A stretch of DNA of 64,000 nt from Branchiostoma lanceolatum (Eukaryota; Chordata; Leptocardii; Amphioxiformes; Branchiostomatidae), in assembly GCF_035083965.1 (NCBI RefSeq), contig NC_089730.1, positions 14,243,242 to 14,307,241 of the forward strand, given 5' to 3'. The position numbers and the translations under genes are program-made. The notes beneath the pieces were generated by a model, which did not search any database, was not told the origin of the DNA, and saw nothing but the letters and a program-made list of their open reading frames with translations. Below, piece after piece: positions 3,348 through 59,349 of the stretch (position 1 is its first letter; each line of letters opens with the position of its first letter).

Positions 3348-4084
3348 CATTGTTGTAGCTCCTTTTCAGTAACTGCAATCAAAACAACAGGGAAAAACTT
3401 GTCAGTGAAACTCATTTTCTCGGAATGAATGAAAGGGGCAAACTGAGGTGGAGAAGAATGTAATACAATTTGCTGTGGGTTTAAAAAAAAATCTATTTAC
3501 GAAGGTAAGACGTTCATTTGTAGACAACCATACTACTCCGTAAATTAATAACAATACAACTGTAATACCTCTCTCCGATATAGATAACTATGAACTTGTG
3601 GCTGTTACGTGATTGATCCAAGACCACTTTACCGAATAACAAGTCATATATCACGTAAGTATGACACTTAAAATGCGCCTAAGGGTTTGACGTTATAGCA
3701 GTCACACACACATTTGGGCGCAGGTGCATCTCTCTATAGCTTTTTGCACTAAAACATTTGGCAATGTTAGATTACATTCCCCCGCTTGATAGCGACAGGA
3801 AAGCGTTCACAAAGTGTCCTTTCATTGGAAAAAGGACAAATTTAATGCCGTTGCAAAAATAAAAGCCGGACGTATATTGAGGAAATTGATTGGAGTTCCC
3901 CTGGAAATAGATGGCATGTGTCGCTTCCATGCGGCATGTCCTGAGCATGCACCTGCTAGTGGCCTAGCATGTAAACACGGAACGGGACGGTCTAACACTT
4001 CAAGGCGTGCGGCTACTCACAGTAGGTTTTCTGCGTCAGTTCCTTGACTAGAGATGGATCGAGCTTGCTGTTCTTCTTGCCCAT
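3348..4084 (-). CDS. NCS1: Neuronal calcium sensor 1 (frequenin), first two coding exons, partial
   Basis: Coding exons are 4084..4021 (21 codons plus 1 base) and 3372..3348 (25 bases); both donors read GTGAGT and the exon 2 acceptor is TTGATTGCAG. The spliced product reads MGKKNSKLDPSLVKELTQKT, then YFTEKELQQW, and breaks off inside the Trp codon. This matches the conserved N-terminus of NCS-1: an N-myristoylation start (Gly2, with Lys3, Lys4 and Ser6) followed by the first helix leading into the degenerate EF-hand 1. The family is an EF-hand Ca2+ sensor that tethers to membranes through its acyl chain and regulates PI4-kinase, receptors and exocytosis. The frame closes exactly across the junction (T + TT = Phe). 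The remaining exons (EF-hands 2-4) are not recognisable in 1-3347 and should lie to the left of the window. Identification is strong despite only about 31 codons. Confidence 0.88.
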
Positions 4085-9349: not shown

Positions 9350-9356
9350 TATAAAA
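9350..9356 (+). promoter_or_regulatory. TATA box of peptide gene 1
   Basis: TATAAAA lies 93 bases before the start codon of the first cluster gene, a plausible core-promoter distance allowing for a short 5' UTR. Equivalent boxes precede the other five genes. Confidence 0.6.
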
Positions 9357-9442: not shown

Positions 9443-10826
9443 ATGAAGACAGCACTGTTTTTCCTGGCATTCATTGCTGTGGCTGCGGTAAGTTTCTCGC
9501 ACTTTCTTGCTAAAGATGTAACGTGATGTCTTCTTGTTAATACGACATATCCACTCTTGTTAAGTCTTGTACCCATTCGTCAAATCATTAGAGATGAGGA
9601 CGGTGGTGGTGGCATTATTCTTTCCTCTCTATCATTTCATGAACCATGGATCAAGCTGAGGACAAGGCGTCACAAAAAAACGGCGGAGGGACCAATTATT
9701 GACCTGATATGCTTTTCGTCGTTGATGCATCGATGCTCTAACAGACAGAAGCTCCTGCCTACTAAGCTCACATGTGTACATTTATCATGCCTGCACAAAC
9801 TCAGTACTAGTATATTATTAGAACAGTGATGGGCGAGAAAGCCCACCCCGACCAATCAAACCACGTGAATCGCATTGAAACTCAGATTCGTATCCGCCAT
9901 GACCCGACAAATCGCTTTCTAACTTGCGTTAACGACTACATCTAACCAAACAAACTCGCCAGTAAGATGGTGGAAGGTGTCAGCTTCCAAAAGATGTTTT
10001 CAGATTGACAATTTTGGCACTTTGGAAGTGATTGAAAGCGACCGCGATTTAACGTTTAGAGAAAAGTAGTAGATACTATTTTTTCTAAACGTTAAATCGC
10101 GGGCGGATTCAATCACTTCCAAAGGACCAAAATTGTCAATCTGAAAACATCTTCGATTCACGTGGTTTGATTGGTCGGGGTGTGTGTGGGAATGCTAGAA
10201 ACCACATTGCCTGCTAAAGTCGTTTGTGAAAACTAGTCATTCAGAAAATTGAATAATAACATTCTAATTCATTCTATGCCACTGGATTACAAGATGAAAA
10301 TAACAGTTTGTTTGTTTGTTTGTCATTAGTCTCAGTGGACTCCATGGAATCCAAACGACCCATGCACCGATGCCGATGACTGCCCCCTGCCGGACGTGTA
10401 CTGCTGCATCTACAACCAAGCTCTAGGCTACAAAAAGGTGAGCTGTGTTTTAATCACATTGGACAGGAATCACAATACATGCCAGTTAAACATAGTTGTA
10501 ATATTGCACCAGGTTACATTCATACCAGTTAAACATAGTGAATATTGCGCTAGATTACATTGATGGAGACACCGCAAATATGGATCGTTATGTATTTAGC
10601 AGACCATCGAAATATTTCTCAATCAAAGAATTTGACTTTTGGCGACGCCTCTCAGCAAAGCCGTACTCATACTTTTGACATTTGCTTGCAGTGCGAGCTC
10701 ACGCCGCTAGAGGGCTGGGCCTGCTGGCCGGAGACGGACTGCCCATGCGCAAACAACGGCCAGGCTCTGACGTGTGTCCCGAAGCCGGGCAGCAGCACGG
10801 GGGGTACCTGTGAAATAACTGGTTAG
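9443..10826 (+). CDS. Secreted colipase/prokineticin-like ten-cysteine protein, cluster gene 1
   Basis: Exons are 9443..9487, 10330..10437 and 10692..10826, giving 95 residues; all junctions are phase 0 and GT-AG. Exon 1 is a signal peptide (MKTALFFLAFIAVAA). Exon 2 carries Cys1-Cys4 as C-x5-C-x6-CC; exon 3 begins on Cys5 and continues C-x9-C-x5-CPC-x7-C-x11-C. This is the spacing of the colipase / prokineticin (AVIT) / Dickkopf-C disulfide fold, and CCIYNQALGYKKC resembles the corresponding colipase segment (CC-x4-ALG-x3-C). The N-terminal AVIT motif of vertebrate prokineticins is absent, so receptor activation of that type should not be assumed. A polyadenylation signal AATAAA lies at 11090-11095. 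Exon 3 was chosen because its acceptor restores the frame directly on the cysteine. Substrate or receptor is unknown. Confidence 0.85.
9842..10184. mobile_element. Fold-back MITE in intron 1 of peptide gene 1
   Basis: Terminal inverted arms at 9842-9872 and 10154-10184 share CGTGAATCG / CGATTCACG and CCGACCAATCAAACCACG. A second nested pair of arms (about 9990-10067 and 10085-10152) contains AGATGTTTTCAGATTGACAA and its reverse complement. No coding capacity. This is a non-autonomous DNA-transposon type hairpin. Confidence 0.8.
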
Positions 10827-12545
10827 AAAACAGAACACGCAGAACCGCCATGTAGAGCCTTCCAGTGTGATTAATGTCATTGTCAAATCGCCTGACTAAA
10901 TATATTTGAACTACAATGTGCCATGGTAAACTCCAACTAAGACGTTACCGAACTTTCCAATCGTCCATACATAACGATATTCAAGGCCACGTGAAAGTTT
11001 TCCCCTTTTCTTCTGTGCCATTAAAACAAAATTATACTTCGATATCACAAGACAAAGTCATTTCATCAACTGGTTTCATCTGACGATCAAATAAAATCAA
11101 TGTGTCATCAACTGTTGAATGTACTGTCTTTTCTTCTTACTTAAACCTTGATGGCTAATTAGCTATGCAAATATTGGATACGGTTACATTAGCTTTCTGG
11201 AGGCCACCACATGCAGAAAGCTATTGTCACTATCTTACAATGTTGGATATATAGTAGATATCACGCAATGATGATTATAGGAAGATGGAAAGAATATACT
11301 ATGTTATGATTAGATATAGATAGATAAGTTTATTTGCATGTTCTTGTCCGAGGGCTAATTGCAACTTGTAAGGGCATTTATAAAAAGTAAACATACAGTA
11401 CAAGATAACAAAAGTGACAAGTGGAACTAGAACAATACCATAGCACGTCCAGGACAAAACATACAAAAACTGGACGTTCTTCCGTACCATGGTCACATAC
11501 CAGGGGGCCCAAAATCAACCTTAACCTTTGTCTTCCCAAAAATCTATCCACATACCATTATCAAATATCATCGTATCATAGGTTCTTGATATGCTGACTA
11601 AAAAATCCGGAAACACACACACACAGACACACATAGACACACACACGCACAAAACTATATATCCATTTCCATGTCGGTAATAAGAACTGCTCCGGATGTT
11701 AGAACATAAAAAGGAAGAGATATGTTTCGTAAATCAGTTGGAGAGATTACAACATCGTGGAGGCGAATTCAACATCTCTCCCGGTATTTAGTTCCAACAA
11801 ACAAACAAACAAACAAACAAACAAACAAACAAACAAACAAACTAACTAACAAACTAACCACCCAACTTAGCGTCTCAAATACGCTTTTAGAAATGTGATC
11901 TTCATACAACTATTACCTCATTCAGAGCCGCCCCGCAGTTTTTCTAATCTTAAAAAAACATATACTTCGGAGTCATGCGTTAGGAGTGGGTGGGCGGATG
12001 TCAGATAGTCACATCTGACACCTTACTGTACATATTTCAGGAGTTTGGAAAATATTTAGAATTGGCATCACACGACTTAACATGGTGGGAAAACAAGTTG
12101 ATAGGTCAATGAATAGATAGCTATGAATGAATGAATGAATGAATGAATGAATGAATGAATGAATGAATGAATGAATGAATGAATGAATGAATGAATGAAT
12201 GAATGAATGAATGAATGAATGAATGAATGAATGAATGAATGAATGAATGAATGAATGAATGAATGAATGAATGAATGAATGAATGAATGAATGAATGAAT
12301 GAATGAATGAATGAATGAATGGATGGATGGATGGATGGATGGATGGATGGATGGATGGATTAGTAGATAGATAAACATATATGACTCACAACAACAGGAA
12401 CCACGCAACACCTGGCGCCACTAAAACCTTGAAAATAGCCTTCAAATGTGACCTTTTAGCCCGTCACGTACGTCAATTCCGCACAGCACGAACAAATCAA
12501 ACATGTGACGTTCTATTCTTGTACCTTGCCCTTCAGCAGTCCCCG
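10827..12545. other. 3' UTR of gene 1 and spacer with simple repeats
   Basis: Contains the gene 1 polyadenylation signal, a dispersed-repeat piece near 11325-11420 with a relative near 23620-23690, an ACAA array (about 11797-11845) and a very long GAAT array (12122 onward). No gene seen. Confidence 0.5.
12122..12361. repeat. Tetranucleotide array (GAAT)n changing to (GGAT)n
   Basis: About 50 near-perfect GAAT units are followed by about 10 GGAT units. On the minus strand this reads as an open frame of repeated Ile-His-Ser, which is an artefact of the repeat. Confidence 0.97.
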
Positions 12546-12552
12546 TATAAAA
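12546..12552 (+). promoter_or_regulatory. TATA box of peptide gene 2
   Basis: TATAAAA lies 86 bases before the start codon of cluster gene 2. Confidence 0.6.
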
Positions 12553-12631
12553 CCAACAGCACCTTGGGAGAGACCTCCACTCTCACCTCGACCCATTGCC
12601 AATCGCTCCGACACTCCAGAAGCTCGGTAAA

Positions 12632-14300
12632 ATGAAGACTGCTCTATTGTTCCTGGCCTGCATCACTGTGGCTGCGGTAAGTGTCCATCCCTCTTCTTCA
12701 CTTCACTTCACTTCAACAGATAAATGTTCATATGTAGATGATCTGTATAAAATCATTGTATTTCACCTAATCTATGGGAGCAATAGAATTGTCTTGTTTT
12801 CTCCAATGTTTCATCTCTCTTACTAAGGAAAATGTTATGTTGTCGTTAAGTATTGAAAATCCTCAATGACATACTACATATATCAGCAAGACGTTACTAG
12901 CATGGTATGGGTGACATTAAAAGACTTAAGTATCACATTTAGGTATTTCTTAAAATATTTTCAACTCAGAAAAAGTGATAGTTGGGAAAGTTGATAGCTC
13001 CTTTTTATAGAGTAACTTACTTACTTTACTTCCTTTTTTTGTATGGTAAGACGATGATTGAATGTGTCTTCTAGTGAAAAATTGAGTGGTGCAATCTCAT
13101 TAATGCACTAATGAGAGAATGATTGGATCTGTTTTCTAAAACTGGTGAAATAATACGATATCTTTGTGACAATAGCTGATACTTATAAAAGTAATTATCA
13201 CGATTTTCAAATGAAATACTTTTCCGAAATAAAAGCAATGTGATAAATAGCTATAGCTAAATTGCAAAAGAGAACAACGGACGTGGAATGGCGTTTGTCT
13301 TGGAGAAATGGCTCAGCTGACATGAGGCCATGGGTTTTCTTATGGAAAATGTACGCGCATGTCCCGTACACGTGGACAAGGTAGATGAGCAACACTTGCC
13401 CCTGCACCAGAAGTTTCATCACTGCTATCGTAGTTAAAGTTTTGGCGCAGAATAAAGCTGAATTGTGAAACATTCATTGTCCTTACCAAAATGTTTCATG
13501 TTTTCTTTTTTTTCTTTTCTTTTTCTTTTTCCCCCCAGGCCCAGTTCTGGCACCCGCTGCACCCATGCGTAGACGACACCGAGTGTCCAGGCGCTGGATA
13601 CTGCTGCCGCTTCAACAATGTTATCTTCCAGAATCTCGTAAGTAATCTAACCATTGGTCTGGGTTGTAAATATTATATCATCTTAATCCTTCTACTCAAA
13701 CGAAACTTCCAAACTTCAGTAATATTGTGTATATTAGCTCTACCTAAAATGTGAAAAGCATACAGCGTCAATGCAAAGTGTTTTGCGAAAACTTTACACT
13801 TGCCATACACTGTGCCATACATAGGTGCATCTTTTCATGCATCATTCATTGATTCATTGATCCATTGATTCATTCAATCATTCATTCATTCTTCTTCTTC
13901 TTCTTTATTCCTCCCGTAGGAGAGCATAGCATACTTAAAATATAACAGTATTAATACATATTTAAAGGACAAAAACATATTTACAAATCTCACAGTATAT
14001 GACATCCGTCACATCCCGTCACATCTATATGTCTAAGTCTGTGGCACTCGTTGTTCTACTGTACTGTTCGATGTCACTTCTGTCTCTAGTCCCCTCATCG
14101 GGTATAATTTTTCAACGGCTTCATTCAGTCATTAATTCATTTATTCATTTTGTCGGCAGTGCGAGCTGAAGGCTCAAAACGGCTGGCCCTGTGACCCCAC
14201 TTATGCTACTAGCTGTGCATGCGCCGACGGTCTCGTGTGCATGCCAAATGCTCTCACCTCCGAGTTCGTCTGTCAGATCGAAGCGGAACCTGCGGCTTAA
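12632..14300 (+). CDS. Secreted colipase/prokineticin-like ten-cysteine protein, cluster gene 2
   Basis: Exons are 12632..12676, 13539..13637 and 14160..14300, giving 94 residues; both introns are phase 0 with GTAAGT donors, and the exon 2 acceptor sits behind a strong pyrimidine tract. The signal peptide is MKTALLFLACITVAA and the mature chain is predicted to start at Gln in AQFWHPL. Cysteines follow C-x5-C-x5-CC-x10-C-x9-C-x7-CAC-x5-C-x10-C, the colipase/prokineticin/Dickkopf-C pattern. Exon 2 is almost identical to that of cluster gene 3, with CCRFNNVIFQNL shared, so the two are the most recent duplicates together with gene 3. The tail is short and acidic (QIEAEPAA). AATAAA at 14498-14503 is the likely polyadenylation signal. 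Function unknown. Confidence 0.87.
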
Positions 14301-14608
14301 GAACCAGCGCACTTCACACCTCAAAACGGATCCTTCAAGCTCTGTCTAGATACACGATGTACTCGTAGTGATGAGTGTTATTTGGGGGCCTTTCAATGGT
14401 CCACAATATTGTGTACCCGGCGTAAGGCAACTCAAAACCAACATTACAAGTTCCTCCATGTATTCTTGGTCAGATCATTTGATGGGATCCATCTAAGAAT
14501 AAAGTAGCATGAACATACGAGTGCGTTGCGGAGTAGAGTGATGTTTTTTATATTCATGTATGGTTTGTTATGATAGAGTTACATGTGCCCAGCGTTCAGA
14601 AGACAAGT

Positions 14609-15080
14609 TTAAGGTCTCATTCATGTGTTACTCCGCGTCTAAAAGAATCCGTGACGAAAAAAATTAACGGCTGCATGAACGTGTGTTTATATCGGTGGGA
14701 AATTCCCTTGTAGCCAGCCTAACTGATCTCAAGCGTCAAACTGATGAAAGCTTGTTTGTATCTGAAGAAATTGGCAAGTAAAGTTCGGCAGCCGCGCGCG
14801 AGGTCGGACGGACACCGCCGGGCATCGCGCGTGATGCGGTCATGCGATTACAGCTGGAAAGTGCCTTTTTGGTGGTGTAACAGTTTGTAATAGCTATAAA
14901 AAGAGATTGTATGTAGTGAAAATGTTGGCAATTTTTTCACACGATCTAGGTTAAATGTTCTCAACAAATAATGAATAACATTGGCACATTTTCTATATCT
15001 TCATTACGAACGCGCCCATATAAAACACGTATTATAACATGTAAGCCTATGGGGCAAAAAACTCATGAATGAGACCTTAA
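14609..15080. mobile_element. TTAA-flanked MITE (piggyBac-like target site)
   Basis: The 13-base inverted ends GGTCTCATTCATG (14613-14625) and CATGAATGAGACC (15064-15076) are perfect, and each is flanked outside by TTAA (14609-14612 and 15077-15080). TTAA duplication is the hallmark of piggyBac-type insertion. The 464-base interior has no transposase frame. It separates cluster genes 2 and 3. Confidence 0.75.
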
Positions 15081-15385
15081 GACTTTACACATCTATTAAG
15101 TCACCGGCTCAGTTTGATTAGTTGCCATGGAAGCAATGCTAATTCAGCATCGAAACGAAGCTTCTCCAGAGATTTCGCTCCAGCGGTCAGAAGGAACCAT
15201 ACCACAGATCGCGCCACCAAAAACTCTGCCAACACCAAAAATATTGGCAAACATCGGATGTATCTATTAGCAAGACAGGCGCTGGTTTCCGCGCAGGATG
15301 GGCGAGTATTAGTTCACCTGTTACTTCACACAGTTTTATTTATTCTAACCCTCGGCTCTTATCTACATTCGTCATCCACTCTATC

Positions 15386-15393
15386 TATAAAAG
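15386..15393 (+). promoter_or_regulatory. TATA box of peptide gene 3
   Basis: TATAAAAG lies 75 bases before the start codon of cluster gene 3. Confidence 0.65.
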
Positions 15394-15460
15394 CAACGCG
15401 TGTGGTCCTACGTGTCCTATTCTGAACAGAAAGAATCCGTTCGCTCAGAAACTCTGCAAA

Positions 15461-17090
15461 ATGAAGACTGCACTGTTTTTCCTGGCATTCATTGCTGTGG
15501 CTGCGGTAAGATTTATCCTTCCTAACAAGAAAAGTCTAACGATATTAATCATAGGTTGATTGCTCCATATAATGACATCCGTCGTTTTGTAGGTGAAGAA
15601 TATCCTTATTACAAAATATGGAGCACTTTATAGCATGCTTACTGCTGTAAATCTTACGGTGAAAATTACGACTTTTCTTGGAGTGAAAACCACTATAGCC
15701 TCAGAGAAGTATACGCAGATGCTGAGAAAGACAAGTAAACCGGGTTATCTTCTCTTCACCGAATACATTGCTCTTCTATGTTTTACTTCAACAGCATCTA
15801 CAAAACAAACTATAGAACCTCTCATGGTTCAAAGATATGGTTGATTTGCACAGGTTTAACTTATATATATCTGTGTGCTGAACACAACTGTTTCACTCTT
15901 GTTACTTTCTCTCTCTGTGTAGGCCCAGTTCTGGCACCCGCTGCACCCATGCGCAGGCGACCACGAGTGCCCCGCACAGGGATACTGCTGCCGCTTCAAC
16001 AATGTTATCTTCCAGAATCTCGTGCGTAATCTAATGTCGTTGTCTTTTGTCTGGATAAAACATTCTTCTAAGCATTCTACAGCAAGACCAGATTCGACAG
16101 TGAGGCGTTGGTGTTTAGATGTTACCTGAATATCTTCATCGAGGTTGTATTTGGTCTGGATAAAACATTCTTCTAAGCATTCTATAGCAAGACCAGATTC
16201 GACAGTGAGGGGTTGGTGTTTAGAAGTTAATTACCTGAATATCTTCATCGAGGTTGGTACGAGTAAGTCATTCATTGCTAACATCCGTAATTTTCTCGCC
16301 TGCAAGTTGAAGAAGGCAGATGACAAGTTGCCGAAACGTTTTTTTTTCTGGCGAAAAAAATTGCAGTCGAGGGGAAGGAATGATTTAGTAACCTCGTGCG
16401 AGGCTGTTCACGGAATTTCATCCTTGAGGAAATCGGATTTTTGGCAACGCCTCACTGTCGGGATGTGGTCTTGAAAAGAGCAGGACTCGGACATAGATTT
16501 TAATTCATGATACACAGAAAATTGCCTGTGTTGCGCAATGTCTCGTTATCAGACGCTAAGGCCTAAGAAAAAAATGCTGTGTTTCCGGTTACCGGACCGA
16601 GCCTAGCAAAAACCAACCGACACTAGCCTTTTGTCTGGTTGGTCACTGGTATGGCAATGGACATGAAATTTTCATGCCATCTGACATCTGAGTGGTGAAA
16701 TTATTTTAAAAAAAAGACGTTTACAGAATTCATACTAAATTTACGGGATCCATACGGTACATTACTAAGAAACATACGAATTCTACGGAATTCATACGAG
16801 TTTTACTAATAGTAAGGATCGTATGTATGCTGTAAGACTAGTATGAATTCCGTGAAATTTCTCGATTGAATTCTGAAAAATTCGTTTGTATTCCGTCAAA
16901 CTCGTATCAATATTTCGGCACCCCTGACTAATGTCTGTATTTGCGTTGACAGTGCGAGCTGAAGCCCCAGCAGGGATGGCCCTGTGACGTCACCGGAGTG
17001 ACTAGCTGCGCCTGTAACGACGGTCTAGTCTGCAAGCAGGCCAACCCCCTGTCAGCACAGTTTACCTGCCAGATGGAGATGGAGGCCTAG
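15461..17090 (+). CDS. Secreted colipase/prokineticin-like ten-cysteine protein, cluster gene 3
   Basis: Exons are 15461..15505, 15923..16021 and 16953..17090, giving 93 residues; introns are phase 0. The signal exon encodes MKTALFFLAFIAVAA, identical to gene 1, while exon 2 (AQFWHPLHPC through NVIFQNL) is nearly identical to gene 2, so this gene is a mosaic or a middle member of the 1-2-3 subgroup. The exon 2 donor is GTGCGT rather than the GTAAGT of gene 2. Cysteines: C-x5-C-x5-CC-x10-C-x9-C-x7-CAC-x5-C-x10-C. The C-terminal tail is acidic (QMEMEA). AATAAA lies at 17394-17399. Intron 2 contains a tandem duplication of about 105 bases. A secreted disulfide-rich protein is strongly supported; its target is not known. 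Confidence 0.87.
16048..16258. repeat. Tandem duplication inside intron 2 of peptide gene 3
   Basis: Units 16048-16148 and 16152-16258 share TCTGGATAAAACATTCTTCT, GCAAGACCAGATTCGACAGT and TGAATATCTTCATCGAGGTT with only a few substitutions, so the duplication is recent. No coding function. Confidence 0.9.
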
Positions 17091-17946
17091 GTCTAGCAAC
17101 ATCGACCCGTACAGCCCAGACATGAAAACATCGAAAACCGCCAAAACATCGAAAGCAGCCAAAACATCGAGAGCATCCATAAAATCTAAAGGCTAGATAT
17201 AGGTGAACGACTTGAAGTGATGATACACTCAAACTTTGTTTGAAATTTCCAGTTATCGATATGTATCGGTCGTCACGAAATGATGGCCGCCGTATTGATT
17301 TATGTGGTGATTTGAAACAACAGGGAACTGTGTTTCGTCATCGCGAGTTGTTTCATGTATTTCTGGTCTGACTATTGGAGGAAACCCTCTGGGAATAAAG
17401 TAGTATGAATGTACAGTTGTGTAGACTGGTTATTTGTCTTACTTGGACCTTATCACCTACCGTAAGATTGTACGCTTTCACCATCAGTATATTTCCAGTA
17501 GAACGCAAGCCGTAATGTGTCATGGAACACTAGACAGAAGATAGAGATTAGACGAGAGAATATCAGGTTTGGTTACATCCAATGCTTACTGCTAGATCGA
17601 TGTAACTCGTACGTGACCTGTGGGGAAAATTGCGGTTTTTTTTGTGAAAAACCGTAACTTATAGTCTCAGAGCAGTAGATGCTGAGAAAGACAAGTAAAC
17701 CGTTTGATGACTTGATGGGTGGATGGACGGATGGATAGATAGATAGATAGATGTAAGTATAGATGGATGGATGGATGGATGAATGGATGTGTGGATGGAT
17801 GGATGGACAGATGGATGGATGGATGGATTGATTTAATCATAGCTAGAATATTAATAGTAATAGAAATAGTAATAGTACATGAAAAAACATTTGACATCTG
17901 TGACAAAGATTGAAGAGCAGCACTCCTTATATTATCATGTACACAT

Positions 17947-17990
<44 letters not shown>

Positions 17991-18253
17991 ACACTCACAA
18001 ATCCACACTATACCATGTAACACTTCTACACACACTGATAAACTTCAAACAGTTCTAGATGCACTCCTTTCCGTACAGGATGGAGCACTATTGATTTTGT
18101 ATGCTTAACTTATGCTTACTTATGGCAAGGACATTGTAAAGTATTATACATTTATATCATGACCTTGCCTCTGGTTAACCTTTGCCATACTACGTCGTCA
18201 CGTTGCCAAGATATCACAAAAGCAAAACCAACAACCAATGACGCCCTTTTATC
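17091..18253. other. 3' UTR of gene 3 and spacer with microsatellites
   Basis: Contains the gene 3 polyadenylation signal, a GGAT/GATG array (about 17707-17830) and a CA array (about 17945-17996). No gene seen. Confidence 0.55.
17945..17996. repeat. (CA)n microsatellite
   Basis: A run of about 25 CA dinucleotides, slightly interrupted at its end. Confidence 0.95.
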
Positions 18254-18260
18254 TATATAG
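18254..18260 (+). promoter_or_regulatory. TATA-like box of peptide gene 4
   Basis: TATATAG lies 55 bases before the start codon of cluster gene 4, within a flank that is also similar to the flank of gene 5 (shared word CCATCGGCTGT just before ATG). Confidence 0.5.
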
Positions 18261-18308
18261 GAGCACAGGTAGTTTGCCTAAGGACATTCTACCCATCGGC
18301 TGTTCAAG

Positions 18309-20024
18309 ATGAAGACTGCCCTGCTGTTCTTGTTCTGCCTTGTTGTGATCAAGGTGAGTTCCTCTCTTTCTTCAACTGCACTGGGCAGTCTAAGAACATG
18401 GGCAGTTGCTCTCAAGACATGAAAGCCCCTTCTCCACTGGTAGCGTGTGTAGTCCAGTGGTTAGTAACCCTGCCTCTGGAACTAGAAGCCGTGAGTTCGA
18501 TCCCGGCCGTGTCGCTCACCCGACATGTACGCTACTGGAAGCGCCTGCAGTCCTTAAGCTGTGGTCCTCTGTTTACATTGTACATGCATTGTCTAAAAGA
18601 GCTAGGGAAATTTGCCCGGCTATGATGAATTTGTAAATACTGTACATATATAGCGTCTGTCTTCTCTGTCATGACCGGTGGCAGAGTAGCTCTTCGGTGA
18701 GCTAAACTTCCTTCCACGGGTCTGAGGCCGTTGAGCGACTCAAACCTACCAAAAGTGGTTTCTATGGAAACACTCTGACTGTTTTGAGTATGTTTAAAAT
18801 ATGTTGGAGACTGGAAGCGATTGAAAAACCAATGAGCGCTCTCTGAAAGACGAATGAGCGATTAAGTCAAGTATATTAGAGTCAAAATCAATTTTTTTTC
18901 ACCAGTTTTCTATCTTTGTAAAAGCAGGTATAACAGGACTGATTATTCTGAATGGAGTTTAAACTGTAAAAGCCAACACCATAAATTGGACTTACTCAAA
19001 TTTTCGACTGAACAGCTACAGTCTTTTTCAAGGAATGAACCATCCAGGACTGATTATTCCTTATGATTACTATATATTACAGGCTCAGTTCTTCAACCCG
19101 CTGACTCCATGCCAGTCGGACGAGAACTGTCCGTCCCCGGAAACTCACTGTTGCCGCCTGGGCGTTTTCGGCATCAACACTGTAAGTCTCACTTTTTTTA
19201 TCAGAAAACAAGATACACATGGACATGGACATGGACATGGACATAGTGGCGCTACACGCAAGTACATAGACTTATTTTACAGCGCCACAGAAAAACTAAA
19301 TAAGAATAGACAGAGACAATGACAAACTTAAGCAAGTTTCTGAACAAACGTAAGATGAATAATATAAGATATGACTGAAGTAAAGCGTATCAAATTGAAT
19401 ATTTGAATAGACAAAGTGATTGAAATATGAAATACATAATACATACATCTGTACCGACCCTTGATTAATGTTAAGGTAAGTCTCACTTCATACGACCGTC
19501 AACTTTATGGGTTCAGCTATGTCGTGAATACGTTCGATGTCTCAAACAGTTATCAATTCCTTGATAACACACTCAAATACAAGTTGTCGCATATCTAGCT
19601 ACTATAGAACAACCCATGCTAGAAGAGGTGCATGTATCTGGTCTTTCAGGTTGACCCCTTAACACCCTCACTATGACTCTTGGGTCCAACATTTTCTTCT
19701 AGCGTGGTAACGCCCACGACAGGCCAAAATGTACATTTGAACGCTACAAATTTAGGCCTGTTTCGCGCTTAAAAGATTCTGCCATGGACATATACATTGC
19801 GTTACACGTGAAAGTGATTGTACTTCCTTTGATGATGACATATATTTCTCTTATGTTGACAGTGTCATGTTAGGCCACATCACGGCTGGCCCTGTGGCCT
19901 CACAGGGCTCGACAGCTGCCCCTGCGTGCCGGGTTTCCAGTGCGTGTTGAAGCCAAACAGCACCGCGGAGGCGTGGTGCGTTTCGATGGACCTGGAGTGG
20001 CTGGCCCAGAGGCCCGAGGAATGA
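18309..20024 (+). CDS. Secreted colipase/prokineticin-like ten-cysteine protein, cluster gene 4
   Basis: Exons are 18309..18353, 19083..19181 and 19863..20024, giving 101 residues; both introns are phase 0. The signal exon is MKTALLFLFCLVVIK and the mature chain begins AQFFNPL. Cysteines: C-x5-C-x6-CC-x9-C-x9-C-x7-CPC-x5-C-x11-C. The CPC motif, also in gene 1 and gene 5, matches vertebrate prokineticins and colipase. The C-terminal tail is longer (about 14 residues, Trp- and Glu-containing) than in genes 1-3. Flanks and coding sequence are closest to gene 5. AATAAA at 20269-20274 is the probable polyadenylation signal. Intron 1 carries a tRNA-like SINE. A secreted disulfide-rich protein; partner unknown. 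Confidence 0.86.
18440..18650 (+). mobile_element. tRNA-derived SINE in intron 1 of peptide gene 4
   Basis: A tRNA-like head has an A box TAGTCCAGTGGTTA (18450-18463) and a B box GAGTTCGATCC (18493-18503), spaced as in a polymerase III internal promoter. It cannot fold into a full tRNA and continues into unrelated sequence, so it is a SINE rather than a tRNA gene. The 3' boundary is uncertain. Confidence 0.65.
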
Positions 20025-20848
20025 TGAGGATGCGCACGTACCCCATGCAGACCCTTCAAATCCATTAAAATCACCTGAAGATCGCCCGACTAGATACATG
20101 ATCATGATGATCTATTCGAAATGATGATTAGCTCCGGCAGTTGTCCATGTAGTATGGTCACTTGATGCCATATTAGTTTCTGTACTTTCAGGCAACAGCT
20201 TGTGGTGTTTCATCATTACGAGTATCATCATGTACTTCTGGTCGAAACACAAGAGATACCCGTCACTGAATAAACCGTCATGAATTGTGCCATAGAGTTG
20301 TGTGTGATTTTGTACTTAGATATATTATCAAATTCGATGTGCCGGCTGTGCAAATAGCTCAGTCCGTCAATCGCACGGATGTGAACATTCCTTTTATGCA
20401 ACTGCGTGAGGCACAAGTATTATAATTACTTGATTTGAAAAATGCAATCGGATAACTTATACCTCCATAATAGTATCCCGTTTCTCTCTACAGAATCTCG
20501 AAATCAATGGCCTTGAATTCGAATAAAGAACGAGTTCCTTTAGATTAGAACGGCCTGCTGTAGCTTATCCTGTATGTACCTGATAAGTCGGTTATGGGTC
20601 CGAGATGCAGTGGGTCCAGTTTCTGGTACCAGAGAACCAAAACCAGTTAAGAAGGATACAGTTTCTCCGCATTCAATTCGTTTTCTCTATGTGCTAAGTA
20701 ACCCAAAACAAATCGGTCTGGTCAATCATTTTTTCCACGAATGAACTACATAGCTTATAAAGAGCTGATGAATATAACGTATCATTATACATTGATAGAC
20801 TTCTGGTTAATCTTTACCATGATATATTGACAAGGTCGTTGCCAGTCC
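20025..20848. other. 3' UTR of gene 4 and spacer
   Basis: The first 250 bases are similar to the 3' flank of gene 5 (shared CCCCATGCAGACCCTTCAAA and TTTCATCATTACGAGTATCA), showing that the duplication unit of genes 4 and 5 includes the 3' UTR. The rest holds nothing recognisable. Confidence 0.6.
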
Positions 20849-20856
20849 TATATATA
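20849..20856 (+). promoter_or_regulatory. TATA-like box of peptide gene 5
   Basis: TATATATA lies 101 bases before the start codon; the context resembles the gene 4 flank, but the spacing is longer. Confidence 0.4.
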
Positions 20857-20949
20857 CAACAGTAGAACCGACCGATGACGCCATTTTACCCACATCGCAT
20901 ATTTGAGCAGAGGTGTTTTTAAAGACATCCTATCCATCGGCTGTACAAG

Positions 20950-21893
20950 ATGAAGATAGCCCTGCTGTTCTTGCTCTGTCTTGTGGTGATCAAGGCGAGT
21001 TTCTCTTTTTCTTCAGTTAAAATTGTACTGGGCTGTCTAAGAACATATACAGTTGTAAATGAAATCCCTTCTCCACAAGCGGGGACCATCAATCGACCAG
21101 AAAGGTGGTTTCTATGAGCCACTAGGGATTGAAAAATCATTGGTGCTGTCTGAAGGACAGATGAGTGACCTGTCGAAGTTTCGCCAACGGTCGACAGCTT
21201 TCTTTCTTTTAAAAGTGGGTAAAGTAGGGGTGGTCCTGCGTCTTCATGTTCGCTTTTACTTTTCACAGGCCCAGTTCCTGCCATTGGCTCCATGCCAGTC
21301 GGACGCGGACTGTCCGTCTTCTGCAACTCAATGTTGCCGCCATGGCTTTTTTGGTATCCAGACTGTAAGTACTGAAATATTCTTCAGATGTCTAAATTCT
21401 ACAGAAATTTCAGCAATGGTGCGAACGTGATGTCTTAAAGCGTAGCTATCAGTCCTTGATAATACACGAAAATAGTTGCATATAATCTATCAACGATACA
21501 GCGATTCCTGTTGCAAAGGTATCTGGTCTTTTAAGTTGAAACCCTTCATATCATACAACCCGTGATTTGGTAGTAACTATTTCTTAGCGTGGCTACGACA
21601 AACCAAACTATTGAATATTTGACCATTCCGCAGTAGGTTTGACATATGAAAATATTTTGTCATAGACCCATATTGTACGTATATGTGAAATGAGTTGTAC
21701 TTTCTTAGCATGATGTGTATTTCTCCTGTATTAACAGTGTGAGACTAGGCCACAAGCTGGCTGGCCCTGTGACCACGTTGAGGCAGGAGTCGGCAGCTGT
21801 CCCTGCGTGGAAGGTTACGAATGCGTGCTGAAGCCAAACACCTTCGCCACGAGGATCTGCATGGCGGTCCAGGCGAACACCCCGGAACCGTGA
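20950..21893 (+). CDS. Secreted colipase/prokineticin-like ten-cysteine protein, cluster gene 5
   Basis: Exons are 20950..20994, 21269..21364 and 21738..21893, giving 98 residues; both introns are phase 0. The signal exon is MKIALLFLLCLVVIK. Its donor is GCGAGT instead of GT, a GC-AG intron: the same position in gene 4 reads GTGAGT, so one T-to-C change explains it, and AAG|GC is the usual context for GC donors. Exon 2 is one codon shorter than in gene 4. Cysteines: C-x5-C-x6-CC-x9-C-x9-C-x9-CPC-x5-C-x11-C. The gene is the most compact of the six (944 bases). AATAAA lies at 22156-22161. If the GC donor is not used, the gene would lose its signal peptide junction; the intact downstream frame argues that it is used. 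Confidence 0.82.
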
Positions 21894-22907
21894 GGGCGCA
21901 CAAGTATCCCCATGCAGACCCTTCAAACCCTACTAGAATCAGCAGAAAAATATCCTAACTAGATACTTGAACTATCCGAAATGATAATGAACTCCGGCTA
22001 AGCGGTTATTGGACTGTCCAGTTGTCCATGCAGTACGGTCACTTGATGCCATATCAGTTTCTGTACTTTCAGATAACAGCATATGGTGTTTCATCATTAC
22101 GAGTATCATCATGTATTTCCGGTAGAAACACAAGAGATAACAAACTGCCAATGAGAATAAACCGTCATGAATTGCGTCATGAGTGTGGTTTTTGTACTTC
22201 CTTGGATATATGTATATGATTAGACTCTATGTACCGGCTGTGCAAATCCGGCAATCGTACAGCCATTCGTTTTCCGTGTGTTAACTAACCAAGAGCAAAG
22301 CAATTTGGTTCATTATTTTTTTCACAAAGAAACTATATGACTATAAAGTAATGGTGAAGACATGGCTGCTTCGTTTGGACAATTGTTTAATGACATTTAC
22401 AAAGTGTTAGGTTGGGACGTCCTTGGGTTCCCATTCAACCCCACCTTAAAGCCCGTCGGTCGTATATGTACGTCGTTTTGTCAGGTATACGCCAAGAATG
22501 AGGACATTCTCGAAACGTGCAGTTATGGATTCGTATCCTCCTCTCTTGAAAGGTTGAAGTTGATCATAGCTTTTGTTGTCTTATAGTCTTGCTAAATGTC
22601 GTACGACAAAGAAAACTACGGCAATACGACAAAAATCGTACGACCGTACCTTCACCTTTTAACACGTAGGCCCAGGCATCCGCTGGGTCCAACGCCTATC
22701 GACCAGCTCAACTGACATCAGTATACGTAGTTCTTTGAAGATAGCACCTTTCTCACCTCATTATTTACAGTACCTTGTACCAACACGTTCCTTCCTGGTT
22801 ATAGGAAGGGTGTGTGTTTACTCACATGGTGACTCACACCGCACGTTTGGATAACACTAGCATCGGACGATACGCGAAGGTCGCAGAAGACGTAATAGCG
22901 CAGTCGA
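21894..22907. other. 3' UTR of gene 5 and spacer
   Basis: Shares its first part with the gene 4 3' flank. An ATG-initiated frame of 74 codons at 22362-22586 has no family resemblance and is probably chance. Nothing else seen. Confidence 0.5.
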
Positions 22908-22915
22908 GATAAAAA
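22908..22915 (+). promoter_or_regulatory. TATA-like box of peptide gene 6
   Basis: GATAAAAA lies 53 bases before the start codon; weaker than the boxes of genes 1-3. Confidence 0.4.
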
Positions 22916-22960
22916 CAGCAGAACATTTGTCTGACGTTTACAATTGAACGGCTCTGCAAG

Positions 22961-24888
22961 ATGAAGGTTGCTCTGTTTTTCCTGGCTTTTGTTGTGGTGG
23001 TGAAGGTAGGCTTTAAGGCTCTTTTATCAAGGATGTAATATTAGCAGTGTATTTATATTCCTTTCCGTTTCTTAGTATAAACTGTATAGTAGAAAGCGTT
23101 TCACGTTCTCATGTAGTATCTGGGCGAAGATATTTTATTACACGAGGATTGCAACCTATCGTTAAAAGTAGTCAGCATTTTCTCCGATACGAAGGGATCT
23201 AAATCATGATGGATTCTTCACTTTAGTTGATATCCCTTGTTTATGTCGAAAACATCAGCTAGTTGCCATTGTACAAACTTGAATACGTCTATGAATACGA
23301 GGACATGAAACTAAATTGAGGGACATTACGCCTCACGGGCTCATCGTCACTCGATGACCAATGACCAAACTAATGAGAAGATGATGAGAGTAGCAGGAGA
23401 AACATCTTTTCAGCAATATTTGTGATTTTTTTCAATGTTCACTGTCAATAAAATGATATTTCCGACATCGAAGGTTATTAACCTAAGTGAGAACAATCAA
23501 CAGAGAAGTATATGATGTTCATATGTATTTATTTGTGCCTCCAAAAATGATTCCCAGGAAACTTTCACTTTGGCCTCCCTATGGTTGGCTTAAAACTTGA
23601 GTTAAAGTAACGTTGTTGGAAAGTTAATTGCAAGTTCTTGCCCGTAGGCTAATTGCAAGTACATGTATGAAACATGAAAAGGGACGGACAGACAATCATG
23701 AACAGTATAGCCCTCTAACTACTGACACTAAGTTCTAACTTATTGGGTTCGACTTCTTCTTTCGAGAGAATGGAATACGAATGATCACACTTTTTCTGTA
23801 AACTAATGTGTTAGATATTAGGAGATAGATCACATAGAAATCACAAAACAAACTAAAAAGGAAGCAACTATCAAAGTTGATGACACTAGTGCTGACGGTG
23901 AGTTTGAATGTTTGCAGGGTCAGTGGAACCCGCTGGGGATCTGCCAGTATGGGACTGCTGATGCCTGCCCTGACATGAACCGCTACTGCTGCCGCTCCAA
24001 CACCGTCTTCCTCGGACTGCCCGTGGTTAGTATTGTTCTTGTTCCTGTCGCTTTCTTATTTTCATTCAAAACTTTCTCACAATTACATTCCTTCCCTCAC
24101 AGAGCTCTAAAGCTATACAATAAGAACTATATTATAATCTGATATTACGTAACTGTAGCTGACTCCAACTTTACCTAGCCTGCTTTCGAATGACAGCGAT
24201 AAGTTAGTTTTTCAACTGATTTTAGCATGTTTGTACCCTTGTAATATGTGTGATCGCTAGTGATCTTTGATATTATGTAATGAATCATTTTAATCAACAC
24301 ATTTCATGTTATCATGCAAGTGTAACATGCAAGTTGATTTGCAATAAATCTGAATCTGTACATAGAAAACCACGAATATTTATGCAGCTCAGTTGATTCT
24401 TTCAGACAAGACGCAAATATGCACTTTCATATAAATGTAACGTTAAATCCAATGACTGTTTCACAAACTTTCTGCGATTTTTATCATTTTATCGTGTCGA
24501 CAATGAACTCCTAAATGAAGAAAGATTGATTGCAACTGGTGTCCATACTACTGCAGAAGCAGAACACAGTGGACTACTACTATTACTACATTCACCCCTA
24601 ATCTCAAAGCTGAAGGTGTTGGATGTGGCCTCACCTGGGATATTTGATTAACTGGTAATTTATTTGTTTATTGTGCTGTTATTATAATAAACAATGAGCA
24701 CGTCTTTTTGACAGTGTGAGTTGAGGCCGCACCTCGGCTGGCCGTGTGACGCGACCCTGGAGACCAGCTGCGAGTGTGTCCCGAACACAGTGTGCTACAA
24801 GGATATCTGCGTACTCACGTCAACCCTGTCAGCCGCGGATCTGGCGGATCTGGAGGGATCGGGCGGTAATGGTATCGAGGGTCTCTAA
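22961..24888 (+). CDS. Secreted colipase/prokineticin-like ten-cysteine protein, cluster gene 6 (divergent)
   Basis: Exons are 22961..23005, 23918..24025 and 24715..24888, giving 108 residues; both introns are phase 0. The signal exon is MKVALFFLAFVVVVK; the mature chain begins GQWNPL, keeping the invariant Gln. It differs from its neighbours in three ways: Cys1-Cys2 is widened to seven residues, the Cys9-Cys10 loop is cut to four residues (CYKDIC), and the C-terminal tail grows to about 25 residues rich in Ala, Asp, Leu and Gly. The pattern is C-x7-C-x6-CC-x11-C-x9-C-x7-CEC-x5-C-x4-C, still ten cysteines. A shortened last loop may alter the finger that in colipase contacts lipase and in prokineticins contacts the receptor. 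The 3' signal is weak (ATTAAA at 24982-24987). It is the last gene of the cluster. Confidence 0.82.
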
Positions 24889-26967: not shown

Positions 26968-29900
26968 CTACACTATGTTCTTTTCCCTGATCGGTTCGTT
27001 TCGCAAAAATCTCTCGAAACCAAATCTAGTCAGATCCAGCGTCTTGAATTCTCCGTCCAAGAGTAGTTCGGCCACGGCTCTTCCGACCGCGGGCGCTTGT
27101 TGGATTCCGTGTCCGCTGAAACCGTTGGCAAGGTAGAGGTTGTCGTAGATGGGGTGCGTACCGATGATGGCGTTCTGATCTACCGTGTTGTAGTCATAGT
27201 AACCGGCCCAGGCCATCCGCAGCTGGGGGGGGGGGTGCATGGTATTATGAGTGTTTTACAATTGCAAGTATATCTGGACTGCGGATTGCTGAATTCTACA
27301 ACTATGGAGTTTTAGTGATGCAGTCCCCAGTTGTGAAGAAACTTAGTATGACTAAGTATGACTTTATGCAATGCCCAAGACAAAACATATAATCATATCA
27401 GCATCAATTAGAGGTAAGAGTCATGGCATTAGCTTGAAGACAAGCTACGGCTGAGCAATTTGTTACTTAAAGTGACAATAAAGTCAGTGATTTTACATGA
27501 ATGGGGGTGTTAACCATAGCTTGGCAGAGGTAAAAGTTGAACAGACAACAACTGAAATCTGCCAACAACAGTGAAAAGTTTGCACAAACTCCAGCTTTTA
27601 TACAAAACTGTTGAATATAGCCAATACATAGATCCCTGTCATCTAAACGTTTTCACGCATTCACTGATGTTTTCCGTACCTTGATTTCCTCAAATGCCTG
27701 GACCCGGTTTGCCAGCTTTGGCCAGATGGTCTCGTTAAAAAAGTCGTAGTCCACTTCCAAATGTTTGGCATCCGGTTCTTCATGCTGAAATCACAATCAG
27801 ACATCAAATATTTCCACAAATCAATGGTATCTTTGAATGCTGTAACATCTGTGATACTACAGAAAACAGATAGGTGGCACAACTAAACCCTTTATTCAAA
27901 TACACGTTTTATATCTATTCTTGTAATTCCTAGCTAGCATGTATTCAGAACATAATGCACATAAGTATATAGCCTGGCATTCAAACCAATTACAGTATAA
28001 CTGCCGAGTCTCTTTTGTCTTCTTTGGTCAACATTGCATCAGAGTAACAGCCGTTGCATAAAAATATCTCTTCGGACACAACTACATGTATAAGAACCTA
28101 TATTTGGGTTTATCAACCTTTTAAGGTTAATATCCCATATAGAATGTAAGCATCTAAGATCATATTCGCGTAATCAAAAATATGTGAATACAACCTTAAA
28201 TGCTTACATTCTGCATTCATGCTTTCGTAGCTGAATGTACATTGTATGACGTATAATATATGTCTTGTTCTACTTCATACGAACAACATCACGCTGTCTG
28301 TATTGTGATCGTTGTCTGTATTGTAAACACACTGATAAAATAGATACTGATTTGTCTTGGAGACAAAAACTATTTCTGTCATCTCACTATTTTGAACTCT
28401 GCAGTACTGACCTCCTCAGGTGACTTCCCGCACAGATAGTTCCCAGCCAGCCCCTCTCTCCTGAAGTACATTCCCGACGGGTCCACCACCATCGGGCAGT
28501 CCAGCCCGGGACCCTGCGGACAGTGGAACACATACACGAACCTCTTACGCGGCTCTACAGGGAGCGGCGCCTGCAGCTCCCAGTCCAGCCCCATGGGGTC
28601 TTCCTGGCCAATCCCGATCATTTTGGCGATGTCCTGAGCCCAGGGGCCGGCCGTGTTGATGATGTGGCCAGCCTTGACGTTCTGGTACTGTATGCTGTTG
28701 GGCATCTTTACCTGCAGGATATGGAAATATTCATTCTCATGTTTACAACCATGGCTGATGATTAATACCATATGATCTTTGCCACCAGAGGATCTCAAAT
28801 ATATCTCTAATGCTGTAAAGCCCAAACTTATGTAGAATACGTAGGTCGTGTGGCGTAATGGCAGATCTAGAGCGTTTGGCTCAGAACCAAGTGGTCCCGG
28901 GTTCAAATCCTATCTTGTCACCGATCTTGAGCCCTTGGGAAAAGCACCAATTCAGCACTAAAAAGGCTACCATTGCACTGGTTATTTCTGACCAATAAAA
29001 ACCATTATTATTATTATCATTATATCTTAATATTGATAAAACTTTGCAAAACTTACCAAATTTCATAACCATCCTTCCACAGCTTCTTGAGTTACGTTGT
29101 TTAAAAACCACAAGAACAAAGCCTTGTTGGCAAAGGTAATAACAATCATAGAGATCTGCCTTACCTTGACATGTGTTATCCTCTTACAGAGCCTGCCTTC
29201 AACCACGCCTGGTTTGGCCTCCACTACCAGATCGGTGACCTCGCCGTGGCAGTGGTTCACGCCCAGCGAGATCGCCTTCTTCTTCAGTGCCATGAGCAGC
29301 AGCCACGGGTCAAACCAGCCTTCGTTCTCCATCCCTAAGGATAAATTATCACATTCTTCTTGAACACTACGCAGATGTATTGCAATGTGTTCTTCATCAT
29401 TTCTTATAAAGTGACAGGTGTGAGCCGCAGCCTGCACATGCCATTGTTTTTTTCCGTCCTAATTCTGTACTGTAACAACGTTGTCAACATTTCATTTGGC
29501 ATTAACGGACAAGTAAATAAAGTAAATGCCGTTACACTGGATTGAAAATTAGCGTAACGGTTCAAAATAAGCATCAAATTATAGAGTAATGGCCCAATAT
29601 GCTACTTTGCTAGCCAGAACAATGATAGTTGAAAAATTATGACACTTTTTTGCACTGCTTATCCTAACAATATCAGTTTTCCTCCAGCACAGCAGATACC
29701 TCACAGACCAACTCAACTTGTCATTCATCTGTTTTTTATTTAGACTGTATAATTCTAAAGCTTGTAAAGATAGTTTAGAAGAAGAGTTGCAAAGGTTTTC
29801 AGTACCCACCATAGTTTCCCAACTCAATGCCATCAGTGTTGAGCCAGGGGAATTTCACTTCTAGTTGTCTCTTCGTGAACAGTCTCACTTTGGCGCCTAG

Positions 29901-39600: not shown

Positions 39601-40945
39601 TGACATCGAGCAGCAACAGTTCGGCTGGTACAAGGATAAATACCCGTGGCTGTGGAACGAGTTCAAGAAAGCCGGTTACGTCACTCTACTGGCGGAAGAG
39701 ATGCCCAGCGTCTGGGGTTATGAGAAGGGCGCGTTCCGTAACCAACCCACGGACCACTACTTCAGAACCCTGCTCGTGCAAGCGACGAAAACGTTCGGGT
39801 AGGTTGTCACCTCTATTTTTCACTTCGTCGTGCGTGTGCCTCCGGTTCCGGCCCAATGTCTTTGGTATGGTGGAAGACAGGCCGGGTACTGATCCAGACG
39901 CATTTCGGCACCAGTGATAGAACATTATGATATAGACATGGCGTTTCAGCACCAAGGACAGAATCGTTATATTTAGACAGGGTGCTAACAACTTTACAAC
40001 TTAATAACGTATTCTAATGCTAAAACAACTACGTACGGTCCAGGCGATTGCGATGATATTTCGTATGTGAGTAGTTGTTGTGAACCTGATGGTCAAGGTC
40101 GATTTTGGACCTCCTGGTGACCGACCTTTGTACTGCAGCAGAACCTCCGGTTTTTGTATCTCTGGTCCTAGATATGTTGTGGTCTTGATTTCATTTGGCG
40201 CAAAAACTATACCTTATCACAGCCACGGAAATTAGAAAGTTGGCTGCAGTGCAATGAAAAATAAGATTTGAACTTTTCAGTGCAGTTGTGAAGGTGACTA
40301 AAAGACATTTTCCTTCGATGACACAAAGGACTTGAATAAACTGTCTAAAGTGAAAATGACATTTCGACTTTTCTATATTTTTGTTCCAGAGACGAGGCGT
40401 GTGTAGGTTCCACCCCTGCGCACCAAGCAACACTGGACTACACCCGGGACTTCACCAATAAATATTCTGACGGTCTGATGTTCGTCCTGTCCTCCATTCA
40501 CGAAACTTCCCGAACACAGCGAAGTGCCTCCGACTTCGCCACGATCGACTCCGACATCTACTCGCTACTGAAGTTTTGGAACCACAAACTGCTTCTGCAA
40601 AACTCCATCGTTGTCGTGTTCTCAGACCTCGTGGACGTGGCGACTGAGGGCGGGACGGAGGATGATACAGTTTTACCGTTCATGAGCATCGCGCTTCCTC
40701 CTCACATCAAAGACCAGTACCCCGAGATCATGGCTAACCTCAAGGTCAACCAGAACAGGGCTACGTCACCGTTCGACCTTCACAGGACTCTCCTGGAGGT
40801 GCTGGACTACAAGCCGAGGCAGAACGGGCAGTACTCTCGCGAGAGTAGCCTCTTCCACGAGATTCCCGCTGACAGGAGCTGCCAACAGGCGGGGATTCCA
40901 AAGGAACACTGCACGGGCAAATTCACCGTCCATCCAGAAATATAG
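36685..40945 (+). CDS. DUF229 family, alkaline-phosphatase-fold membrane protein, probable pseudoenzyme
   Basis: Exons 36685..37002, 37434..37522, 37956..38097, 38515..38737, 39576..39798 and 40390..40945 give 516 residues; all phases close and all junctions are GT-AG. Residues about 8-27 form a signal-anchor helix, followed by a very acidic stalk (about 31-88) and then the DUF229 (PF02995) domain. Family hallmarks: FPMKHEFVKVEC, LTEGLRAREF, KAGYVTLLAEE, NQPTDHYFR, LPFMSIALPP and TSPFDLHRTLLEVL. The fold is that of alkaline phosphatases and sulfatases. Two expected catalytic positions differ: the usual G-x-D-S motif reads CVGSMSQ (Gly about 212 in place of the metal-binding Asp) and the usual SDHG reads SDLV (Leu about 412 in place of His). 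It is therefore probably inactive as a hydrolase and may act as a binding protein, lumenal or extracellular. Polyadenylation signal AATAAA at 41277-41282. Confidence 0.88.
37072..37135. repeat. GA-rich microsatellite in DUF229 intron 1
   Basis: An imperfect GA/GAGG run just after exon 1. The open frame reads through the exon 1 donor into this repeat, but the GTGAAC donor at 37003 and the in-phase exon 2 show that it is intronic. Confidence 0.85.
38876..40203. repeat. Two copies of one dispersed repeat in DUF229 introns 4 and 5
   Basis: Copies at about 38876-39047 and 40045-40203 share ATTGCGATGATATTT, CCAAGGTCGATT or TCAAGGTCGATT, CTCCGGTTTTTGTATCT-like words and GTGGTCTTGATT. Identity is roughly 75%. 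The left copy is preceded by a small palindrome CCTCCATGAAAATGGAGG (about 38764). The family is not identified. Confidence 0.7.
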
Positions 40946-59214: not shown

Positions 59215-59349
59215 GCGTACCAAATTGTGGGCGGCGCGGTGAGCGATATTAGTACACGTCGCCACTTCGGCCCGCAGAATTTCGTACGCCTCCTCGGTGG
59301 GCAGTTTGTTACGCGGCCGGGAAAATTCGTACGTGCGTTCATACGACCG

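Follow-up and report, generated by a model that had tools for sequence, protein, structure and literature searches.

In this study, we analyzed a stretch of 64,000 nucleotides (nt) from the lancelet Branchiostoma lanceolatum (NCBI RefSeq assembly GCF_035083965.1, contig NC_089730.1, positions 14,243,242 to 14,307,241 of the forward strand; hereafter the window, numbered from its first letter), in which positions 9443-24888 of the plus strand carry a tandem cluster of six genes for small cysteine-rich proteins. An initial annotation, made from the sequence alone, had described six head-to-tail genes with a shared three-exon, phase 0/0 design, a signal exon of exactly 15 codons, and ten cysteines in the order C-C-CC-C-C-CxC-C-C. 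All of this was recovered in each of the six when we rebuilt the genes from the raw sequence as predictions from splice signals. The first gene, g1 (9443-10826), consists of exon 1 (9443..9487), which encodes the signal in 15 codons, exon 2 (10330..10437), which encodes an N-terminal arm and Cys 1-4, and exon 3 (10692..10826), which encodes Cys 5-10 and ends with the stop codon. The same three coding exons make up g2 (12632-14300; 12632..12676, 13539..13637, and 14160..14300), g3 (15461-17090; 15461..15505, 15923..16021, and 16953..17090), g4 (18309-20024; 18309..18353, 19083..19181, and 19863..20024), g5 (20950-21893; 20950..20994, 21269..21364, and 21738..21893), and g6 (22961-24888; 22961..23005, 23918..24025, and 24715..24888). 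Exon 1 is 45 nt long in every gene; exon 2 ranges from 96 to 108 nt and exon 3, with its stop codon, from 135 to 174 nt. The precursors have 93-108 amino acids, and 0.9-1.8 kb separates each stop codon from the next start codon. Both introns are in phase 0 throughout, and all ten cysteines are encoded after exon 1. Intron 2 lies immediately 5' of the fifth Cys codon in all six genes, and exon 3 thus opens with Cys 5. The loop between Cys 5 and Cys 6 (C5-C6) has 9 residues and that between C7 and C8 has 1 residue, without exception.

The exon ends were set by eye at the splice signals, without scoring of alternatives. All 12 introns end with AG and 11 begin with GT; intron 1 of g5 opens at 20995-20996, directly after exon 1, with GC (GCGAGT) and is a GC-AG intron, where the close paralogue g4 has GT. 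We looked for a seventh copy by running exon profiles against stop-to-stop segments of at least 15 amino acids in all six reading frames of the window. Each profile gave six strong matches (E values of 3e-8 to 3e-7 for exon 1, 8e-20 to 4e-16 for exon 2, and 5e-27 to 8e-15 for exon 3). These are the six genes' own scores and are high by construction, because the profiles were built from them; the informative result is the gap to the next matches (E = 3.4, 0.22, and 0.45, chance level) and the absence of any others, and no seventh copy was found on either strand of the window.

In the mature region, nonsynonymous divergence (dN) was lower than synonymous divergence (dS) in 15 of 15 gene pairs, with dS beyond estimation in two, and the same held for 14 of the 15 when the shared cysteines were left out (g4/g6 being the exception), a pattern that fits translated sequence. 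TATA-box-like sites, identified by consensus match only (TATAWA), lie on the plus strand 55-101 nt 5' of the ATG in five genes: 93 nt in g1 (9350..9355), 86 nt in g2 (12546..12551), 75 nt in g3 (15386..15391), 55 nt in g4 (18254..18259), and 101 nt in g5 (20849..20854), with none in g6. This motif occurs in 4.9% of sampled segments of about 60 nt, but because the span searched upstream of each gene was 150 nt, the contrast is weaker than that figure implies. An A[AT]TAAA motif follows within 305 nt 3' of the stop codon in all six, its chance level not having been estimated. Taking the gene models and the structure predictions described below together, we consider it very probable that the six genes are intact tandem paralogues, each encoding a small, secreted, single-domain protein of the colipase fold with ten cysteines, presumably paired in five disulphides. 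Repeats also occur in and beside the array: an inverted repeat of 75 nt, 92% complementary and with a 13-nt loop, in intron 1 of g1 (9991-10153), perhaps an element like a miniature inverted-repeat transposable element; an ATGA microsatellite of about 59 copies 5' of g2 (12123-12357); and a 105-nt tandem duplication, in two copies, in intron 2 of g3 (16039-16256).

Exon 1 encodes nearly the whole of the predicted signal peptide. Beyond the exon 1/2 junction, each of the six proteins continues with Ser, Ala, or Gly and then with Gln; by the usual -3/-1 rule for signal peptides, cleavage probably occurs one residue past the junction and leaves Gln as residue 1 of every mature protein, and this Gln would probably be converted to pyroglutamate. 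If cleavage before Gln is assumed, the arm that precedes Cys 1 has 7-10 residues (QWTPWNPNDP, QFWHPLHP in two genes, QFFNPLTP, QFLPLAP, and QWNPLGI), reads typically as Q-[FW]-x-P-L-x-P, and sits at the place that AVIT would occupy in a prokineticin. Gln1 and one Pro of the arm are invariant, and neither Lys nor Arg occurs in it in any of the six. A Gly-Trp pair stands one residue short of Cys 6 in all six proteins (GW-x-C), and finger 2, the C4-C5 loop, has a hydrophobic or aromatic residue at or beside the position of prokineticin Trp24 in each. Conservation is found in the arm, in the hydrophobic finger 2, and in the GW near Cys 6; what varies are the loops and tails encoded by exon 3.

We predicted structures for two of the six members, g3 (AlphaFold2 with an alignment of the six sequences) and the mature protein of g4, and compared them with the PDB by Foldseek. 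The g3 model (predicted local distance difference test score, pLDDT, 77.6; predicted template modeling score, pTM, 0.55) matched, at ranks 1-4, the second cysteine-rich domain (CRD2) of Dkk1 (3s2k), the toxin MIT1 (1imt), Dkk1 CRD2 (3s8v), and Dkk2 CRD2 (2jtk), with E values of 0.0032-0.010 and Foldseek probabilities of 0.99-1.00. For the g4 model (pLDDT 77.7, pTM 0.61), ranks 1-6 were taken by MIT1, Dkk1, Dkk2, Dkk1, and the colipase in 1lpb and 1lpa (E = 0.0033-0.086, probability 0.96-1.00), and a further colipase came at rank 12. The best PDB matches of both modeled members are thus all of the colipase fold, in agreement with the fold that the initial annotation had proposed from the cysteine pattern. 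In this fold, the disulphides join C1-C4, C2-C5, C3-C7, C6-C9, and C8-C10 (PMC9918498). A colipase-type fold is well supported for the family by these two models, together with a borderline but non-trivial match to colipase at the sequence level.

That match emerged from profiles of the family as a whole. The Pfam search proposed with the initial annotation gave nothing: none of the six proteins matched Prokineticin, Colipase, or Dickkopf at E values up to 10, in a search whose HMMER filters drop weak matches. A profile of the six members run against 177,635 distinct PDB sequences placed three colipases at the top (E = 0.0074-0.017, next match 0.19, among the best 60 of 75 matches), and with a profile of the mature, C-terminally trimmed sequences the colipases reached E = 0.0023-0.0056, the next chain being unrelated at 0.98. 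As a control for cysteine spacing, we shuffled the well-filled non-cysteine columns 300 times and scored the resulting profiles on the matched stretch of porcine colipase. The real profile scored 19.2 bits and the shuffled ones 3.5 on average (standard deviation 3.3, maximum 16.1); the stretch was the one chosen by the profile itself, which favors the real profile somewhat. Because none of the 300 shuffles reached the real score, the match rests on non-cysteine columns too and not on the cysteines alone. In the reverse direction, the 57-residue porcine stretch used as a query retrieved only colipases from the PDB at E values up to 10. The g4 sequence as a single query matched nothing in the PDB, so that the match to colipase requires the profile of all six.

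Other weak matches were rejected. In Pfam, the sub-threshold matches were to Nodulin_late (g1, E = 0.2; g4, 0.1; g5, 0.0012, with its start in the signal peptide), Bee_toxin (g4, 0.015), LDLRAD1_C (g6, 0.037), and WAP (g2, 0.032; g5, 0.0041, with 17.8 bits against a cut-off of 20.8); g3 had none at all. In NCBIfam, one member had a match, at E = 0.35. The WAP domain has eight cysteines. Its resemblance covers about 20 residues at C1-C4 only, for which cysteine spacing alone could account, and the ten-cysteine order is not that of WAP. We regarded the non-colipase entries of the PDB profile search as chance matches: a bovine antibody (E = 0.19), the WAP protein elafin (0.66), and respiratory syncytial virus fusion proteins (about 0.5-3), similar over a short segment at GW-x-C. 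Among viral contigs 12 stretches, and among prokaryote genome contigs 35 stretches, matched a pattern, and no relative was confirmed in either set, as expected for an animal family. A literature search, with closed-license papers, preprints, and supplements outside its range, found among the papers listed no title or abstract opening on such a lancelet cluster.

The paralogues have diverged unevenly. The strong divergence between cysteines noted in the initial annotation is borne out in most pairs. There are two close pairs, g4/g5 and g2/g3, and this divergence is less pronounced in g2/g3, at 74% identity. The mature dN of this pair (0.18) is well below its dS (0.90; dN/dS about 0.20), and the pair is evolving under constraint. 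Its introns align no better than shuffled introns, and within the mature region exon 3 has changed faster than exon 2 (42 of 135 versus 11 of 99 positions mismatched, p = 0.0003). The signal exons of g1 (9443-9487) and g3 (15461-15505) are identical at 44 of 45 nt; outside this exon the two genes are near synonymous saturation (dS 1.56), and their flanks align no better than shuffled ones. A near-identical signal exon beside saturated remaining exons and unalignable flanks suggests gene conversion between g1 and g3 that was local and confined to the signal exon.

A fixed N-terminal trigger combined with variable address loops is the build of prokineticins and chemokines. Because the conserved arm, finger 2, and GW of the six proteins, combined with a variable exon 3, resemble this build, we put first the explanation that they work like prokineticins, which is the likeliest of those considered here and one that we hold tentatively. 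A seven-transmembrane receptor would be contacted by the short exposed arm and the hydrophobic second finger, both held out by a rigid disulphide core; AVITG would be replaced by the arm, and divergence in exon 3 might have fitted the paralogues to different receptors. Of the two mature exons of g2/g3, it is exon 2, encoding the arm and finger 2, that is better conserved and exon 3 that diverges, which is a ligand-like anatomy. The prokineticin or AVIT family (PROK1/2, Bv8, and MIT1) likewise consists of small, secreted, single-domain, ten-cysteine proteins of the colipase fold with a short N-terminal arm, and its member MIT1 was the second structural match of g3 and the top match of g4. The PK1 gene also has three exons (PMC8877203). 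By description only, not by sequence, the six proteins can be likened to relatives without AVIT, namely astakines and the prokineticin-like peptides of lophotrochozoans, ambulacrarians, and xenacoelomorphs; the ambulacrarian and Xenoturbella ligands have another signature at the AVIT place (PMC11521371). The obvious candidate receptors would be the roughly 20 prokineticin-receptor-like G-protein-coupled receptors reported for Branchiostoma floridae. These twenty predicted genes, an expansion that their authors termed surprising (PMC2246102), leave room for unknown ligands. Prokineticin receptors have been reported in deuterostomes and in a nemertodermatid (PMC6188537), and protostome prokineticin/astakine peptides are described as having no known receptor (PMC8557429).

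Several observations weigh against a prokineticin-like function. Colipase is the closest sequence relative in the PDB profile searches, no prokineticin chain is among the matches listed there, and Pfam Prokineticin is among the profiles that found no match. Both structural models are of moderate confidence, and neither g3 nor g4 has a Foldseek match below E = 0.001. The mature proteins are acidic, with net charges of -4 to -7, and vertebrate prokineticins are not known to be. The AVIT N-terminus is missing, as had been noted at the outset, since all six arms start with Gln and none has AVITG. Trp24 of finger 2 is absent as well, with Ala, Val, Val, Phe, Phe, and Val at the aligned place according to the Trp24 numbering that we assumed for the alignment. 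Both AVITG and Trp24 are reported to be essential in vertebrates, and exon 1 of PK1 encodes the signal together with AVITG (PMC8877203), whereas the six lancelet genes carry the arm in exon 2. AVIT is given as the signature of chordate ligands in general (PMC11521371), which counts against the lancelet proteins if lancelets are included in that statement, and MIT-like atracotoxins of the same fold are described as inactive on prokineticin receptors (PMC9918498).

A more far-reaching version of the prokineticin-like explanation, which we regard as unlikely, is that the cluster represents a cephalochordate-specific ligand family in which a pyroglutamyl aromatic-Pro-Leu-Pro arm replaced AVITG, and which expanded in tandem, together with the roughly 20 unexplained prokineticin-receptor-like genes of lancelets. 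Because the core sequence of this family is still colipase-like, it may preserve features that predate the separation of colipase and prokineticins.

It is possible, if doubtful, that the six are instead defense or barrier proteins secreted into the mucus or gut, with antimicrobial, protease-inhibiting, or deterrent activity, in which a stable colipase-fold scaffold was diversified by duplication. A tandem array whose signal exon is conserved while its mature exons change faster would suit such a role, and the g4/g5 pair (56% identical) is an example. Its mature dS (0.55) is below that of g2/g3, yet its proteins are more changed: mature dN is 0.35 (0.43 without cysteines), giving a dN/dS of about 0.64 (0.77 without cysteines), while dN of the signal is 0.06. 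Exon 3 of the pair has diverged beyond its 290-nt 3' flank (67.3% versus 83.5% identity; 49 of 150 versus 43 of 260 mismatches, p = 0.0002), although constraint or conversion in the flank could also cause this contrast, and the faster change of exon 3 relative to exon 2 is marginal (p = 0.058). Global alignment of the introns gave identities of 51% (intron 1) and 60% (intron 2), below that of the exons; we left these values out of the argument because such alignment is unreliable for introns of unequal length. Positive selection in the array was not shown: dN/dS stays below 1 in g4/g5 and is low in g2/g3. In addition, the proteins are acidic rather than cationic, and invariant arm residues are unexpected in a diversifying defense peptide. 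Defense nevertheless stays a close rival because of its fold relatives in spiders and corals, one spider protein of MIT1-like fold being a trypsin inhibitor (PMC9918498) and sea-fan nematocysts containing abundant colipase-fold peptides without AVITG (PMC11896702). The likeness of the six proteins to these sea-fan colipases and to the MIT-like atracotoxins, as secreted colipase-fold proteins without AVITG, is one of description and of the absent Pfam match.

Rather improbable is a role as digestive colipase-like cofactors, with which a chordate that has no vertebrate pancreas would anchor a lipase to lipid droplets in its gut. In favor of this role, the lowest E value among PDB sequences belongs to colipase (0.0023), in a match that goes beyond the cysteines, and colipase appears at Foldseek ranks 5, 6, and 12 for g4. 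Porcine colipase (1pcn/1eth/1lpb) shares the fold, and the nine cysteines within the matched stretch come in the same order; its C5-C6 loop has 9 residues as in all six genes, and finger 2, with hydrophobic residues, has 9-11 residues in the six, three of them having 10 as in colipase. The structural fit is poor, however, with a loose superposition of g4 on colipase (template modeling (TM) score 0.48-0.49, root-mean-square deviation 6-7 Å) and no colipase among the best 50 of the 54 Foldseek matches of g3. The C6-C7 loop has 5-9 residues instead of 11, and the Tyr55/58/59 finger of colipase is absent from all six, the only Tyr in this loop being one in g2. Colipase also lacks the Gln-aromatic-Pro arm and the invariant GW before C6. 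Colipase has a trypsin-cleaved N-terminal propeptide, whereas no basic residue precedes C1 in any of the six; an arm without Lys or Arg argues against a trypsin-released propeptide of the colipase type. Of the residues that contact lipase in porcine and fish colipase (E15, L16, R38, E45, E64, and R65; PMC7094207), five occur in none of the six at the cysteine-anchored positions, E45 occurs in one, and g1 has Lys at the place of R38. Six divergent copies would also be needless for one lipase cofactor.

That the proteins are secreted Wnt modulators derived from Dickkopf CRD2 is very improbable: Dkk1 CRD2, of the same fold, is the top Foldseek match of g3 and the second of g4 (TM score 0.67-0.72 by target length), but the six are stand-alone domains without CRD1 or a Pfam Dickkopf match, and the stretch between their second and third strands is shorter, with 21 residues and no helix in both the g3 and g4 models; in Dkk1 CRD2 it has 31 residues and contains a helix that binds LRP6/Kremen (PMC6078440). 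Membership of the colipase, prokineticin, or Dickkopf family is unproven.

Elsewhere in the window, a possible start of a neighboring gene lies at 4019-4084 of the minus strand, with the translation MGKKNSKLDPSLVKELTQKTYC, which we take to resemble the N-terminus of a neuronal calcium sensor. Two open reading frames at 28379-29458 of the minus strand have Pfam DAO matches below the cut-off (E = 0.00056 and 0.0081) and are presumably FOXRED1-like. Downstream of the cluster, two open reading frames at 39449-40945 of the plus strand match Pfam DUF229 strongly (E = 4e-16 and 9e-36) and are, we assume, sulfatase-like. A complex array of direct repeats with units of about 65-310 nt occupies 59344-60574; inside it lies a 281-nt inverted repeat (59538-59818 and 59840-60120), which is 99% complementary, so that nearly the same peptide is read on both strands.

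Colipase, prokineticins, and Dickkopf CRD2 have a common fold but are barely alike in sequence. The cluster described here combines this known fold with an unusual arm and is not a new kind of molecule. If its products are mucus defense proteins, they would add to the scaffold reuse already known in spiders and corals. The family lies closest to colipase in sequence, carries a short arm like that of prokineticins, and belongs to an invertebrate chordate; it could show how one scaffold gave rise to both a digestive cofactor and a hormone, and its members are candidate ligands for the expansion of prokineticin receptors in amphioxus that was reported in 2008.

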